Source: an uncultured Pelagibacteraceae bacterium (GTDB lineage: Bacteria > Pseudomonadota > Alphaproteobacteria > Pelagibacterales > Pelagibacteraceae). From it: a stretch of DNA of 53,443 nt. This document shows, piece by piece, positions 1-4,782 of the stretch (its first letter is position 1; the number at the start of each line of letters is the position of its first letter). The notes beneath the pieces are model-generated. The model was not told where the DNA came from. It saw only the letters and a list, made by a program, of their open reading frames with translations, and made no database searches. A program made the position numbers and the translations under genes. Where the stretch lies: assembly GCA_902542795.1 (NCBI GenBank), contig CACBVP010000002.1, forward strand, positions 1-53,443. The letters are read 5' to 3'.

Positions 1-625
1 GTTTAATTTTACCTAAAACGTAAGGAGTTTGCTTGCCAACATAAATATTAGTAAAACTACTTAGGAAACCAACCTTTTGATATATTACCTCATCAAGTGT
101 TTTTTTATTTTTATCTAAAAAATTTAAGTGTTGCTTATTAATATTGACTACTACCTGAGCTATCGGAAAATCAAAAACATTAGTCGAATCTTTTGCGAAT
201 AAGGCTCCAGCTTCAATTAAATGATAGTCAGTAATTTGTTTTGAAGCATTTAATATATAAACAACTGTTAGAACCTCAAAGATAGTTAAAGGAACTTTAA
301 GTTTTTTAATTAATGTTATTGATTGTCTAATTTCTTTATGAGTTAAATATCTATTACCCATCCAAAATCTTTCTTTAATATCTTTAAGAGATGGCGAGAT
401 ATACGCTGTACTACTCTGTTTATTTGCTTCGATAAAACATTTTAGAGAATAAAGAGTAGTAAATTTTCCACTAGATCCTAAAAAATTTATAACATTTTTT
501 AGTTTTCTCTCTGGATGATTTAATTTTTTAAGAACAAGTTTAATTCTCTTAAGATCAAAATTTATAGTTTTATTAAAGAGCTTGTGATTAGCTAGCAGCT
601 TGTAGAGACTTATCGACTGTGACAT
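1..625 (-). CDS. folC: FolC-like folylpolyglutamate/dihydrofolate synthase, partial (runs off left edge)
   Basis: The reading frame stays open from an ATG at 623-625 to the window edge (about 208 residues). It overlaps the end of accD by 38 bases, the usual alphaproteobacterial accD-folC order. FolC adds glutamate to folates using ATP in the cytoplasm. The N-terminal Mur-ligase-like fold is recognisable: a P-loop region at about residues 50-56, then a segment ending KDSTN that aligns with the family's RLDATN motif, then a TNIxxxH-like stretch (VVNINKQH). Both motifs are degenerate: the loop reads GSSGKFT where the family has GTNGKGS, and the GLGGR before LDATN is replaced by GALFA. It may be a divergent but working FolC or a protein drifting from that role. 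Family placement rests on local motifs plus gene order; the C-terminal part is not visible. Confidence 0.75.
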   Translation of the reverse strand, partial: MSQSISLYKLLANHKLFNKTINFDLKRIKLVLKKLNHPERKLKNVINFLGSSGKFTTLYSLKCFIEANKQSSTAYISPSLKDIKERFWMGNRYLTHKEIRQSITLIKKLKVPLTIFEVLTVVYILNASKQITDYHLIEAGALFAKDSTNVFDFPIAQVVVNINKQHLNFLDKNKKTLDEVIYQKVGFLSSFTNIYVGKQTPYVLGKIK

Positions 626-1502
626 TGGAGTCTTGTTTAGCTTGAGCCTCTGGTTTTTTCAATAGAACATTTAATAATGTTCCTATCGTTGTATTTAAAT
701 ATTTTCTCTCTACAACTAAATCAATACCGCCGTGATCTTTCACATATTCTGCAGTTTGGAATTCATCTGGAAGTGTTTCTCTAACAGTATCTTGAATTAC
801 TCGTCTACCAGCAAAGCCAATTGTAGCCTTTGGTTCTGCAATTAAGATATCACCTAACATTGCCCAAGAAGCAGTTACACCTCCTGTTGTTGGATCAGTC
901 AAAACTACCATGAAAGGAATATTTTTTTTCTTTAATTCATTTACTGCTAGAGCAGTTCTAGACATTTGCATTAATGCAATAGAGGACTCCATCATTCTTT
1001 GTCCACCTGAACAACTGAAGAAAATATAAGGAATTTTATTTTCGATTGCATGCTGAGCACCTGCAATAAATGCTTCACCCGATGCTGCCCCAAAAGATCC
1101 ACCTATAAATCTAAAATCTTGAGAACCAACTACAACATTAATATTTTGTACTTTTCCTTTTGCAATTAAAACTGCATCGTCCTGTCCAGTAAGTTTTCTG
1201 GCAGCTTTTAAACGATCTGTATATTTTTTCTTATCTTGAAAGTTTAAAGGATCTTCTTTTGGAAGAGGGGTCTCAATTAATTCAAATTCTTTATTGTCAA
1301 AAAAAGTTTCAAACCTTTCTTTGCATGTAAGTTTATGGTGAGCACCGCACTTAGGACAAACCTTTTGATTGGACTCTAAGTCCTCTTTATAAATTAAGTT
1401 TTTACATCCACATGTAGTCCAGAGATGTTCCTCAATCTTTGAAGATTTCTTTTCAAAAAGAGATTTTATTTTGGGTTTAATAAACTTTGTGATCCAATTC
1501 AT
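588..1502 (-). CDS. accD: Acetyl-CoA carboxylase carboxyltransferase beta subunit
   Basis: AccD pairs with AccA to move the carboxyl group from biotin-BCCP to acetyl-CoA, the first step of fatty-acid synthesis. The 304-residue length is normal. An N-terminal zinc ribbon lies at about residues 31-52, followed by the crotonase-like carboxyltransferase domain with the SCSGGQRMMES oxyanion segment and the RVIQDTVRE segment. The first zinc knuckle is odd: it reads C-G-C (C31, C33) where most AccD proteins have C-x-x-C; the second knuckle, CPKC, is normal. Its start overlaps the trpA stop by 4 bases, so it is probably translationally coupled to the trp genes. Confidence 0.96.
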   Translation of the reverse strand: MNWITKFIKPKIKSLFEKKSSKIEEHLWTTCGCKNLIYKEDLESNQKVCPKCGAHHKLTCKERFETFFDNKEFELIETPLPKEDPLNFQDKKKYTDRLKAARKLTGQDDAVLIAKGKVQNINVVVGSQDFRFIGGSFGAASGEAFIAGAQHAIENKIPYIFFSCSGGQRMMESSIALMQMSRTALAVNELKKKNIPFMVVLTDPTTGGVTASWAMLGDILIAEPKATIGFAGRRVIQDTVRETLPDEFQTAEYVKDHGGIDLVVERKYLNTTIGTLLNVLLKKPEAQAKQDSNVTVDKSLQAAS

Positions 1503-2299
1503 GTTATTTTTCTTTTAAGATTGTACACAACTTTATCTAACTTTGTGACAGGATTTTGTCTCATTTTGAGTGAATTAGTAATAGTTTTACACAATAAAGA
1601 CCCAACTACTAAGCCATTAGCTGATTTTAAAGAAGATATAGTTTTATCTGTGATACCAAAGCCAATTACTAAATTTTTTTTAGGATTGATTCTTTTTATC
1701 TTATTATAATTTTCTAATATCTTTTTTGGAGACACTTTTAGCTTACCCCCAGTAGTAGAAAGCATTGATATATAGTAAATCATGTCATGAGAGTCTTTTA
1801 TGATTTTTTTCATCCTCTCTCTTGAAGTAGTAGGTGATAAAAGCTGAACAAAATTAATACCTTTTTTTTTGCATTTATTTGCAAAATTTTTATTCTCTGG
1901 ATAAGGGAGATCAACGATTATTAATCCATCAACACCCGAAAGTTTACAATTTTTTATGAAATTGTTCTCTCCACTTTGATAAATAAGATTGTAATAACCC
2001 ATAAGTATTAAAGGTTTAGAAGAATTAGTTTTTTTAAATTTTTTAACAATTTGAAAAACATCTTTAAGTTTTATTCCGTTTTTTAAAGCACGATGTGAAC
2101 TACCTTGAATTTGTCCACCATCAGCAATTGGAGTATTATGAGGGAAGCCAAGCTCTAGAATGTCAGCATGTTTTGAAATTTTGTTTAAAATTTTAAAGGA
2201 ATTATTTTTTGTATTATCTCCTGCTACAGTATAAGTGATCAGAGCAGATCTATTTTCTTTTTTACAATTTTCAAAAGCTAAAGCGATTTTGGATTTCAT
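1499..2299 (-). CDS. trpA: Tryptophan synthase alpha chain
   Basis: TrpA cleaves indole-3-glycerol phosphate and passes indole to TrpB. It has 266 residues, normal for the family. The catalytic Glu49 and Asp60 are in place, at the same numbers as in the enterobacterial enzyme, and a loop-6-like STTGG segment and a VVGS phosphate-binding segment follow. Loop 2, between the two catalytic acids, is unusual: residues 53-57 read P-H-N-T-P where the family has P-F-S-D-P, so the Asp56 that contacts the beta subunit is Thr. The gene overlaps trpB and accD by 4 bases each. See the finding on the matching changes in TrpB. Confidence 0.95.
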   Translation of the reverse strand: MKSKIALAFENCKKENRSALITYTVAGDNTKNNSFKILNKISKHADILELGFPHNTPIADGGQIQGSSHRALKNGIKLKDVFQIVKKFKKTNSSKPLILMGYYNLIYQSGENNFIKNCKLSGVDGLIIVDLPYPENKNFANKCKKKGINFVQLLSPTTSRERMKKIIKDSHDMIYYISMLSTTGGKLKVSPKKILENYNKIKRINPKKNLVIGFGITDKTISSLKSANGLVVGSLLCKTITNSLKMRQNPVTKLDKVVYNLKRKIT

Positions 2300-3528
2300 C
2301 TGATGTAGGAGCCTAGTTTTTGTTTTATTATATCTTTATCTTTAAGACTATCTCCGCATGAATTTACAATTATGACTTCTGAACTTTTTAATTTTGGAGC
2401 AATTCTAATAGCTTCCGCAAAAGCGTGAGAAGGCTCTAAAGAAGGTGAAATATTTTCAAGTTTAGAAACCAGCTGATAAGCTTTTAGAGCATCTTCATCA
2501 CTTGCAGAAGTGTATTTTGCTCTTTTTGCATCTTTGAGAAAACAATGAAGAGGTGAAATACCAGGGTAATCTAATCCTGCTGAAATAGACTCAGTTGAAC
2601 CTATTTGCCCTTCTTTGTTTTGAATAACGTATTGGGCAGCACCATGAAGAATTCCTATCTTTGATCCATTGGTTAATGGTGCAGCATGTAGTTTGCTATT
2701 TTTAGGTCCACCTGCTTCCACACCTATGAACTCTGCATGAGTATTCATAAATTCATTCCAAAAACCAGCGGCTGAACTTCCTCCTCCAACACAATTAATT
2801 AGTTTTAATTTATTTGGTATTTTTCCAAATTCCTCTTTAACTTGTTGCATTAATTCTCTAGATATTTGTGCAGTTGACCAAGCACAAATCTTTATAAAAA
2901 TATTAGGCCCTACCGTAGACCCTACACACATGTGTGTAGTATCACAATTTGATACCCAGTATCGCATACATTCACTTACAGCATCAACCAATGTTTGACT
3001 TCCTGTTGTTACAGGAACAATTTCCGCACCATTTTTTTTTATTGCTTCGACGTTAGGCCTTTGTCTTTTGATATCTTTAGCTCCCATAAAAATTTTACAT
3101 TTAAGACCAAATTCTTTTGCAGCCATAGAAAGCATTTTTCCTGCATAACCAGCGCCAGTATCACCAATTATATATTTCTTACCTGCCTTTTTAGCTATAA
3201 GACAGTGTACGGTAGCATTATAAATTTTATGAGCCCCACCATTAGCCTCTGAAACTACTTTAGCGTAAATTTGAGCTCCACCAAGGTGGTCTGTGAGATT
3301 TTCCAGCTTTATAAATGGTGTGGGAGCTCCTATATAATTTTTAAAGTAATGATCTCTTTGATAAAGGAATTTTTTTTCTTTTCTTAATTTTGCAAATAAT
3401 ATTGTTAAATCATCTATAGGTTTTTTTAGAGTTTCAGGTATAAAATTTCCTCCAAACTTTCCACCATACATAAAATTTTTATCATGCTGGTCTATTAGCG
3501 GTATATTTCTTTTAATTCCTAAGCTCAT
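2296..3528 (-). CDS. trpB: Tryptophan synthase beta chain, divergent active site
   Basis: TrpB is the PLP enzyme that condenses indole with serine. The 410-residue protein has the PLP lysine in GGAHK (K101), the GGGSSAAG phosphate cradle and the SAGLDYPG segment, and it sits between trpF and trpA. Aligned from memory with the Salmonella enzyme, several near-invariant positions differ: catalytic Glu109 is Asp (DTGAG), Gln114-His115 are Tyr-Ala, the interface Lys167 is Val, the GPHPYP segment is GPNIFI, and the Ser that contacts the PLP ring nitrogen (NLSGRGDKD) is Cys in NSCGDSLKDKD. Operon context supports the tryptophan role, but kinetics or substrate preference may differ. Confidence 0.9.
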   Translation of the reverse strand: MSLGIKRNIPLIDQHDKNFMYGGKFGGNFIPETLKKPIDDLTILFAKLRKEKKFLYQRDHYFKNYIGAPTPFIKLENLTDHLGGAQIYAKVVSEANGGAHKIYNATVHCLIAKKAGKKYIIGDTGAGYAGKMLSMAAKEFGLKCKIFMGAKDIKRQRPNVEAIKKNGAEIVPVTTGSQTLVDAVSECMRYWVSNCDTTHMCVGSTVGPNIFIKICAWSTAQISRELMQQVKEEFGKIPNKLKLINCVGGGSSAAGFWNEFMNTHAEFIGVEAGGPKNSKLHAAPLTNGSKIGILHGAAQYVIQNKEGQIGSTESISAGLDYPGISPLHCFLKDAKRAKYTSASDEDALKAYQLVSKLENISPSLEPSHAFAEAIRIAPKLKSSEVIIVNSCGDSLKDKDIIKQKLGSYIR

Positions 3529-4120
3529 TAATTTTGTTTATAAAATTTGTAACTTTATGATGATCTTTGTAACCTAACTGACTCTCTAAACTAGAGGATA
3601 AATCAAAGAAGTTAATCCCCAGTTTATTGATATCTTTTACATTATACTCAGAGATTGAACCTGCTAAAGCAAATTTATCACCTAAAGGAATTTTTTTTAT
3701 TAGATTTTTTGGAAACTCTAAAGATTTTTCCATACCAGGAGTATCAAATAATATTATATCAGCTGCATTAAATTCTTGATGTTTATCAATATCCTGCTCA
3801 TCTTTAACTTTAATAGCTTTAATAATTTTAAATCCCATACTCTTTATTTCAACTAATCTTTCATTAGATTCTGATCCATGTAGTTGAATATAATTAAAAT
3901 TTCCAACTAAATTTTTCTTTATAAACTCATTACTAGGGTTTACAGTTACTGCAACAAAAGCAGAATTCATTCTATTATATTTAGAGAGAATCTTAATATC
4001 TGACAAATTAACGTTTCGTGGGGATTTCTCATAAAAAATAAATCCCAAGTAATTCACTTTTAGATCAATGCATAATTGAACATCCCTGGTCGGATTTAAA
4101 CCACAAATCTTTATTTTCAT
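3512..4120 (-). CDS. trpF: Phosphoribosylanthranilate isomerase
   Basis: TrpF performs the Amadori rearrangement of phosphoribosylanthranilate in tryptophan synthesis. The 202-residue TIM barrel begins KIKICG, with the catalytic Cys in the conserved KxCG motif at the end of the first strand. The general acid Asp is expected in the ILFDTPG segment, and the C-terminal phosphate-binding DLSSSLES segment is a variant of the family's DvSSGvE. The gene overlaps trpB by 17 bases and pyrF by one base. The rest of the trp pathway (trpE, G, D, C) is not in this window. Confidence 0.94.
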   Translation of the reverse strand: MKIKICGLNPTRDVQLCIDLKVNYLGFIFYEKSPRNVNLSDIKILSKYNRMNSAFVAVTVNPSNEFIKKNLVGNFNYIQLHGSESNERLVEIKSMGFKIIKAIKVKDEQDIDKHQEFNAADIILFDTPGMEKSLEFPKNLIKKIPLGDKFALAGSISEYNVKDINKLGINFFDLSSSLESQLGYKDHHKVTNFINKINELRN

Positions 4121-4782
4121 TAAATTAATTCTTTAGCAAGTTTTTGAATATTTTTTTTAATATTACCACGTGTGATTGCTCTTCCAATAACTAGCCAATC
4201 AGATTTAACTCTCTTAGCTTCCATAGAACGTTTTTGATCAAAATTTTTTTTTCCTATTTGAACACCAGGAGTAATAATTTCTTTTTTAAAAACTTTTCTT
4301 ACTGCATTTACTTCATGAGGACTGCAGACTATAGCGTCCAAAGAAGCTTTTTTGGCTAGTAGTGTTTGGTGCATTACCAGTTTATTTACAGTCTTATTAT
4401 ATCCAATTAGTTTTAAATCATTGTTATTTAAAGAAGTTAACGTTGTTACACCTATGATCTTTACCGATCCTGAAACTTTTTTTACAGCTTTTAAAGCGGT
4501 TAATCCTGATGAAATATGAACAGTGAGATAATTTATTCTTAAATCTTTTAAAGCTTTTATCGTCGAAATCATAGTATTTACTGTGTCATTTAATTTTAAA
4601 TCAATAAAAATAATTTTATTTTTTAATTTTGATACAAATTGTCTACCATTTTTAGAATTCATGAATTCTAAACCAAATTTATAACCAACTTTAAATTTTT
4701 TAGATTTTGACTGAAAAATTATTTTTTTTACTTTTTGAATATTTGTAGTATCACAAGCGATAAAAATTTTTTTTTTAATCAT
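4120..4782 (-). CDS. pyrF: Orotidine 5'-phosphate decarboxylase
   Basis: PyrF catalyses the last step of UMP synthesis, decarboxylation of OMP. The 220-residue TIM barrel has the diagnostic DLKLND (D-x-K-x-x-D) catalytic block after FI at about residue 60, and a late GVQIG / VIGRAIT phosphate-binding pair. It is shorter than the E. coli protein (about 245) but near the usual 220-240 of the short bacterial form. It overlaps ihfB by 8 bases and trpF by one base, which places a pyrimidine gene inside a tryptophan transcription unit. Confidence 0.93.
   Translation of the reverse strand: MIKKKIFIACDTTNIQKVKKIIFQSKSKKFKVGYKFGLEFMNSKNGRQFVSKLKNKIIFIDLKLNDTVNTMISTIKALKDLRINYLTVHISSGLTALKAVKKVSGSVKIIGVTTLTSLNNNDLKLIGYNKTVNKLVMHQTLLAKKASLDAIVCSPHEVNAVRKVFKKEIITPGVQIGKKNFDQKRSMEAKRVKSDWLVIGRAITRGNIKKNIQKLAKELI

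Follow-up and report, generated by a model that had tools for sequence, protein, structure and literature searches.

Allostery and channelling are classically taught on tryptophan synthase, and the SAR11 bacteria (Pelagibacterales), whose form of this enzyme we examine here, rank with the ocean's most abundant bacteria. In the canonical enzyme, Asp56 of the alpha subunit (TrpA) and Lys167 of the beta subunit (TrpB) would be joined by an ion pair, as an earlier sequence-only reading of the DNA treated below states. Excerpts of two papers state that changes of alpha Asp56 in studied enzymes cause a significant loss of activity only within the complex (PMC6608616), and that in the closed state of the canonical TrpB Gln114 bonds to Asn145 and Arg148, while Glu109 stabilises the charge on indole N1 (PMC9512447). 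A distinct SAR11 trpB_1 cluster, including P. ubique HTCC1062 with one copy, was published in 2008, and the single P. ubique trpB was argued to be necessarily functional (PMC2395257, Genome Biol 2008, 9:R20, in the part available). The window analysed here is a stretch of 53,443 nucleotides from an uncultured Pelagibacteraceae bacterium (assembly GCA_902542795.1, contig CACBVP010000002.1), in which trpB (2296..3528, 410 amino acids) and trpA (1499..2299, 266 amino acids) lie on the minus strand, as do all features located below. The pair is the usual SAR11 form, in single copy and at a conserved locus, and it very probably encodes a working tryptophan synthase in which the interface between the subunits and the beta pocket have been re-built.

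On alignment to TrpA and TrpB of E. coli K-12 (NC_000913.3), whose numbering we use, the position of alpha Asp56 is occupied by Thr (codon ACT, 2132..2134) within P53-H54-N55-T56-P57, and the catalytic residues Glu49 (2153..2155) and Asp60 (2120..2122) are retained, as the sequence-only reading had stated. It had also placed Val at the position of beta Lys167, which is correct (Val181, 2986..2988); a shifted gap near 167 had been named as a possible source of error, and this worry falls away because the alignment there (GSQTLVDAVSE against GSATLKDACNE) is gap-free. The mapping agrees with the other pocket changes that it had listed, with Asp123 for Glu109 (3160..3162), Tyr128-Ala129 for Gln114-His115 (3142..3147) and Asn209-Ile210 for His195-Pro196 (2899..2904; GPNIF against GPHPY). 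Two details do not stand. Cys391 at the Ser377 position (2356..2358) had been taken for an anomaly and is an ordinary residue, since all 26 canonical alphaproteobacterial TrpBs examined have Cys there; the supposed two-residue insertion nearby is unneeded, since CGDSLKDKDI aligns with SGRGDKDIFT ungapped, with Lys396 at Lys382, and the KD of this stretch is invariant in 15 SAR11-type proteins. Further changes emerged in TrpB, namely Arg148 to Ala162 (3043..3045; Arg148 hydrogen-bonds with Gln114 in the R state of the canonical enzyme, according to the excerpt of PMC9512447), Asn171 to Ser185, Asn236 to Ser252 and Arg379 to Asp393, and in TrpA, namely Phe54 to His54 and Gly181 to Ser181. The finding of the earlier reading is a real lineage trait that had been partly misread in detail.

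The concordance of the two subunits was examined in 168 loci with both genes, representing 163 distinct TrpA/TrpB pairs, of which 132 are of SAR11 type and 26 canonical. An acid at alpha 56 was always accompanied by Lys at beta 167 (28 of 28 distinct pairs; 26 Asp/Lys and two Glu/Lys), and Thr, Cys or Ala at alpha 56 always by Val, Ile or Leu at beta 167 (135 of 135, comprising the 132 SAR11-type pairs and three of the L047-L049 type described below). No mixed pair was found among the 163, and one more Glu/Lys pair, in G554 (L216/L265), lies beyond them. The paired loss on both subunits that had been proposed is fixed in the main SAR11 TrpB clade and concordant in every distinct pair. The changed positions are near-invariant across the 132 SAR11-type pairs, and the substitutions are therefore not chance. 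Alpha 56 is Thr, Cys or Ala in all 132 and Asp in 26/26 canonical pairs; beta 167 is Val in 129 and Ile in three, against Lys in 26/26; beta 109 is Asp in all 132, the residue that defines the group, against Glu in 26/26; beta 114 is Tyr in 128 and Met in four, beta 115 Ala in 130 and Gln in two; and alpha Gly181 is replaced by Ser in 131. A second coupled change lies inside TrpB, where Tyr or Met at 114 goes with Ala, Ser or Val at 148 in 131/132 pairs.

The catalytic core was retained. All 132 SAR11-type pairs have beta Lys87, Thr110, Arg141, Asn145, Arg175, Gly292, Asp305, Glu350 and Lys382 and alpha Glu49, Asn104 and Thr183; alpha Asp60 is present in 131 and replaced by Glu in one. In the window these include Lys101, the Lys87 that forms the Schiff base with pyridoxal 5'-phosphate (PLP; 3226..3228), together with Glu365, Lys396 and the pair Arg155 and Asp320 (Arg141-Asp305). 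TrpA has Glu49, Asp60 and Thr183 and scores 225.8 bits to PF00290 and 212.6 bits to TIGR00262, above the cut-off of 102.35. TrpB has the fold-type II fold and is homologous to TrpB, the closest solved chains being TrpBs at about 40% identity. Glu109 itself is absent, and since a carboxylate (Asp123) is retained there, the SAR11-type protein may still work like TrpB; the Asp56-Lys167 contact of an alpha2beta2 synthase is represented in the window by Thr and Val.

This form is widespread in SAR11. Among 60 genomes of the same genus, 42 carried a SAR11-type TrpB (70-95% identity, partial and split copies counted), four another TrpB type (28-34%), two spurious matches only and 12 none. Most of 40 genomes from another family in the order matched the window TrpB at 68-70%, one at 55% and two at 37-41%. 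Of 147 family genomes sampled, 125 matched, 117 of these at 53% identity or more; among genomes at least 90% complete the figure was 52 of 53, the exception being G033 (94%). A TrpB-model search of 18 genomes that had been negative, G033 included, gave nothing above 36.6 bits. Neither protein nor family model found a TrpB in G033, G002, G028 and others, so some SAR11 seem to be without TrpB, and uptake of tryptophan may consequently occur in the group. Among 385 genomes of the class, the SAR11 type was found in the genome of the window and in four further members of the family; the matches listed below these begin at 45% identity, and 25 of them, which were examined (L059-L083), are canonical. 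When 84,980 species genomes were scanned, the best 80 named loci were all labelled Pelagibacteraceae, Pelagibacterales, Pelagibacter, Fonsibacter or alphaproteobacterium. They include HIMB114, whose TrpB is identical to that of the one-contig genome G475. In the protein tree the SAR11-type TrpBs form one clade (Shimodaira-Hasegawa-like approximate likelihood ratio, SH-aLRT, 100) on a stem of 2.22 changes per column. HIMB058, which we take to represent SAR11 subclade II, groups with the window, and its TrpB is 94% identical. HIMB114 (L099) and the window share 81% identity in TrpB, 66% in TrpA and 30-46% in the flanking genes; TrpB may be unusually conserved within SAR11, or it may have been exchanged.

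A second instance of the paired loss was found in a very different TrpBA type. In L047-L049 (G042, G058, G005), the TrpB is 28% identical to the window TrpB and keeps Glu109 (ETGAFQN), and Leu at 167 accompanies Thr56 in TrpA. Their trpB, trpA and accD are all divergent (27-35%) inside the conserved locus, whose flanks match the window (pyrF 73-76% in L048 and L049, trpF 64% in L048, folC 60, 60 and 29%). Likewise, L046 (G056) has a divergent trpB-trpA (32 and 30%) between trpF at 66% and accD at 70%. Because both genes were replaced together in these loci, trpB-trpA seems to be exchanged as one unit. Another TrpBA type, with Glu at alpha 56 and Lys at beta 167, was seen in L046, L045 (G074) and L216/L265, the last from G554, which is likewise a one-contig genome; the TrpBs of L045 and L046 also have Ala114-His115 and Asn at 305.

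The concordance in 163 pairs, together with this second instance, supports a re-built alpha-beta contact, which is the part of the earlier proposal of a rewired interface that stands. The added suggestion of possibly altered chemistry is unsupported, given the sole trpB, the conserved locus and the core residues kept. The two subunits would have changed together, with a small residue opposite an aliphatic one taking the place of Asp56/Lys167, and Tyr (or Met) opposite Ala that of the Gln114-Arg148 network. TrpA most likely still splits indole-glycerol phosphate, as Glu49, Asp60 and Thr183 suggest, and TrpB most likely still couples indole and serine on PLP, as suggested by Lys87, Asn145, Glu350 and Lys382; Asp109 would replace Glu109 as the carboxylate that steadies indole N1. 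Loop 2 of TrpA would signal to TrpB without the ion pair, the signal presumably running through a re-packed and less charged interface, and since the Arg141-Asp305 closure lock persists, the open-closed coupling probably survives. For the window protein itself, activity, channelling and a possible change in how strongly the subunits are coupled allosterically are what we infer from sequence.

Other explanations were weighed against this one. Complete loss of alpha-beta coupling, with TrpA and TrpB working independently and indole diffusing between them, would suit the changes at Asp56, Lys167 and Asn171 and the replacement of alpha Gly181; we regard it as improbable, because the subunits change in concert, in the second TrpBA type too, the replaced loci L046 and L047-L049 exchange trpB and trpA as a block, and Arg141-Asp305, Arg175, Gly292 and alpha Asn104 are kept throughout the SAR11 type. 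It is very unlikely that TrpB has turned to another beta-substitution or elimination role while tryptophan is imported or made by an enzyme not yet recognised. The replacement of Glu109, Gln114 and His115 in all 132 SAR11-type pairs, the long stem of the clade and the relatives without any TrpB would fit such a change of role, but six one-contig genomes of SAR11 type (G198, G475, G397, G307, G506 and G515) contain no further match to the TrpB model above about 40 bits, trpB adjoins trpA in 19 of 19 loci read, with trpF alongside in 15, and the alpha catalytic residues are kept. Moreover, HTCC1062 grows in artificial seawater with glycine as the sole amino acid among the nutrients listed in the excerpt of PMC5069961. 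A second canonical trpB elsewhere, which the sequence-only reading had raised against itself, was seen neither in the own draft (656,782 bases in 48 contigs, 61% complete), which has one TrpA, one TrpB and a leftover 17.4-bit match spanning 88 of 385 model positions, nor in the six one-contig relatives. We rejected it as a candidate, as the remaining matches reach at most 40.2 bits, a level at which other PLP enzymes of fold type II also score. In so incomplete a draft one may suspect that the substitutions come from misalignment or misassembly, or that the gene is dying and decays neutrally; this idea is already refuted by the recurrence of these residues in 132 distinct pairs, which come from many genomes, some of them in one contig, and by a TrpB better conserved than its neighbours in the comparison with HIMB114. 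Taken together, the kept residues, the single copy, the conservation, the argument in PMC2395257 and the growth of HTCC1062 make it very probable that the SAR11-type enzyme makes tryptophan.

Several points weigh against a working enzyme with a re-built interface as the general SAR11 condition. The type is not universal, because some SAR11 genomes have other TrpBA types (G554, G056, G074, G042, G058 and G005) or no TrpB, and low-identity TrpB matches also occur in G550, G596, G548, G607 and G526. The concordance is a count of sequences and not of events; since most pairs have common ancestry, it rests on roughly two co-losses rather than 135. The one-contig genome G506 carries PHNTP, DTGAGYA and TLVDA, and it is presumably HTCC1062, the organism, distinct from that of the window, to which the evidence of prototrophy applies. 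The window TrpB scores 388.8 bits, 3.65 bits below the curated TIGR00263 cut-off of 392.45, which is passed in 10 of 29 genomes searched, nine with SAR11-type genes and one (G554) with another type. The excerpt of PMC8187860, the only paper met with that treats both the alpha 56 and beta 167 residues, ties each of them to beta Tyr279, a position that is Leu both in the window and in canonical alphaproteobacteria. A predicted AlphaFold model based on a SAR11-only alignment reached a mean predicted local distance difference test (pLDDT) score of 68.6, which is too low for contacts between side chains to be read from it. The literature searched, which consisted of open-licence papers, yielded no biochemical work on a SAR11 TrpAB.

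The more surprising part for specialists is the split trpB of relatives. The active-site loop D-T-G-A-G-Y is intact in the window (GAT ACT GGC GCT GGT TAT, 3145..3162), as is the whole gene; at the homologous place, 14 of 169 genomes of the genus have trpB in two overlapping open reading frames (ORFs; L034-L039, L084-L096 and L246). The split was first seen in six genomes of the genus, with an identical junction in all. Of 397 family genomes, 13 matched a degenerate pattern for the extra base, every one of them from this genus, and so did the 14 genus genomes, all of which were confirmed on reading as two ORFs; the reversed control pattern gave no match in the same sets. Among the genomes of the genus, 14 are at least 90% complete and all of these lack the split, so the observation rests on less complete drafts. 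The ORFs join by skipping one base, GUG GGG GAU ACC|A/C|GGC. Frame 0 reads ATT GTG GGG GAT ACC AGG CGC (ACC CGG CGC in G052) and runs into a stop codon 6 to 18 codons on, and skipping one base after ACC restores IVGDT-GAGYAG, so that the full-length junction peptide would carry IVGDTGAGYAGK.

Selection follows the joined frame. In 12 distinct split genes, variable columns in the 84 nucleotides upstream are synonymous and non-synonymous in a ratio of 24/4 in frame 0 and 3/25 in the +1 frame, and in the 87 nucleotides downstream the ratio is 1/24 in frame 0 and 21/4 in the +1 frame. The switch in pattern indicates that selection acts on frame 0 before the junction and on the +1 frame after it. 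The 16-nucleotide core varies at one position only, the skipped base (A or C), and the codons GTG GGG GAT ACC GGC for V-G-D-T-G are identical in 12/12, with the lowest synonymous change of 383 five-codon windows; at the same places, 25 intact homologues use GTG 0, GGG 3, ACC 3 and GGC 4 times. Assembly error was considered as the source of the split and rejected, on the grounds of the shared junction in 14 genomes, the frame-specific substitutions and the low synonymous change. In 13 split genomes searched, no trpB match above 20 bits was found besides the two halves.

It is likely that in these 14 genomes trpB is translated whole only through a programmed +1 ribosomal frameshift inside the catalytic loop, with a prfB-like signal, a stall on a rare Arg sense codon and an allele that moves by local recombination. 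A G-rich run resembling a Shine-Dalgarno (SD) sequence stands at a set distance (GTGGGG, GAT, ACC, then AGGC, or CGGC in one) and is otherwise invariant in the 12 distinct genes. The signal would consist of this run, one codon and ACC in the P site; the ribosome would stall on AGG, or once CGG, and then take GGC in the +1 frame. In the window, AGG makes up 12% of Arg codons, CGC 0.9% and CGG 0.7%, and in one split genome (86% complete, 25 tRNA genes) the Arg tRNAs detected were UCU, ACG and UCG, none exact for AGG or CGG. The supply of TrpB, and of TrpA through its overlapping start, would then hinge on the availability of arginyl-tRNA and on how efficiently the ribosome shifts. RNA structure at the shift shows only weak covariation (two-sided change in 4 of 51 predicted pairs) and is not claimed, and the shift motif gave 0 matches in viral contigs.

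Two separate proteins, or slippage of the transcript on GGGGG, would also account for two overlapping ORFs, and a +1 slip of tRNA-Gly on GGGGG, or loss of one G, does restore the frame (GIPGAG). We hold these alternatives to be unlikely. Separate proteins are at odds with the +1 codons just past the junction (GAGYAG), which vary synonymously only although they lie ahead of the first in-frame ATG, and a TTG restart is broken in L096. The GGGGG slip is the weaker alternative because Asp109-Thr110, kept in 132/132 SAR11-type TrpBs, would become Ile-Pro, and the run has just five G.

The origin of the allele was examined in two trees. In the protein tree, 9 of 12 shifted genes stand together. In a DNA tree from which 22-28 codons on either side of the shift had been removed, the 12 are scattered among intact genes, and a single clade is rejected (approximately unbiased test, p-AU 5e-95); L087, for example, groups with the window, G022 and HIMB058 at 100/100 support. 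The summary table of this tree, which sets the shifted genes against four outgroup rows only, gives one change. Over the ten codons before the shift, L087, L092, L036 and L038 are 0.87-1.00 identical to another shifted gene and 0.47-0.57 to their nearest intact relative. LR[Q/E]IV precedes the shift in 12/12 shifted genes, and KK[Y/F][I/V][V/I] stands there in 25 intact genes; across codons -10 to -1 the shifted genes share AGLR[Q/E]IV, which nearby intact relatives are without. Exchange of a short allele by recombination appears to fit these sequences best. The allele would cover some 10-25 codons and bring along its particular residues upstream of the shift, and its passage between lineages by local recombination would explain why close relatives differ in having it.

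The minus-strand gene order of the window is rpsA, hup, pyrF, trpF, trpB, trpA, accD, folC. Upstream of trpB lie trpF, for phosphoribosylanthranilate isomerase (3512..4120), and pyrF (4120..4782), and downstream of trpA lies accD (588..1502); the end of trpB and the start of trpA share four bases. The sequence-only reading had the right span for trpA and trpB. Family models were used to check trpF, trpB and trpA, and the other neighbours were named from their translations and the gene order in PMC2395257. In L029 (G003), trpA at 704-1525 is broken by one in-frame TAA after YFNLILQ, a single case that may be an error or decay.

SAR11 runs a textbook allosteric enzyme without a standard inter-subunit contact and with Asp where the indole-activating Glu is standard, and its form offers a natural experiment that can show which steps of the signal path an enzyme can do without. 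If true, the trpB frameshift is, as far as the literature was searched, a newly seen case in which a bacterial metabolic gene has a programmed +1 shift at a sense codon; the shift would fall within the catalytic loop of a biosynthetic enzyme, and intact sister alleles allow comparison. The searches gave no report of a trpB frameshift and no account of these SAR11 TrpA/TrpB residues, and neither PMC3711429 nor the available part of PMC5009743 contains the word trpB.

Compared with the canonical alphaproteobacterial and E. coli TrpA-TrpB1, the SAR11 type is alike in fold, in the Schiff-base Lys, Arg141-Asp305, Asn145, Glu350 and Lys382, in alpha Glu49, Asp60 and Thr183, in Cys at 377 (Ser in E. 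coli) and in its neighbours, as in G063. It differs in alpha D56T and in beta K167V, E109D, Q114Y, H115A, R148A, H195N, P196I, N236S and R379D, and its TrpB is 41-45% identical to the best canonical ones among the matches listed. The window type very probably belongs to the trpB_1 cluster of PMC2395257; this divergent cluster has been known since 2008, though it is uncharacterised as far as the literature searched goes. In the part of PMC2395257 available, the trpB_1 account has no residue-level analysis or link to TrpA residue 56, and 'frameshift' is absent from the main text. Among frameshift sites, the one in prfB occurs in split genomes too: of 13 searched, 11 yielded a prfB (two gave none), and all 11 have AGGGGG-TAT-CTT-TGA; the excerpt of PMC12421855 describes a conserved C after the prfB shift site, and in L202-L212 the site is followed by T (8) or A (3). 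The split trpB shares with the prfB +1 shift of that paper the G-rich SD-like run, one codon, a P-site codon, and a slow A-site codon followed by C. It differs from prfB in lacking the in-frame stop and the CUUU slip site, with a sense codon, AGG (CGG in G052), in the A site, in being a metabolic gene, and in its P-site ACC, which re-pairs poorly in the +1 frame. In the yeast retrotransposon Ty1, the P-site CUU can re-pair on slipping, and AGG presumably acts there as the slow codon. Compared with the Ty1 site CUU_AGG_C (PMC5009743, in the part available), the bacterial trpB is alike in its slow A-site AGG and in the +1 GGC read by tRNA-Gly, and unlike in its P-site ACC.

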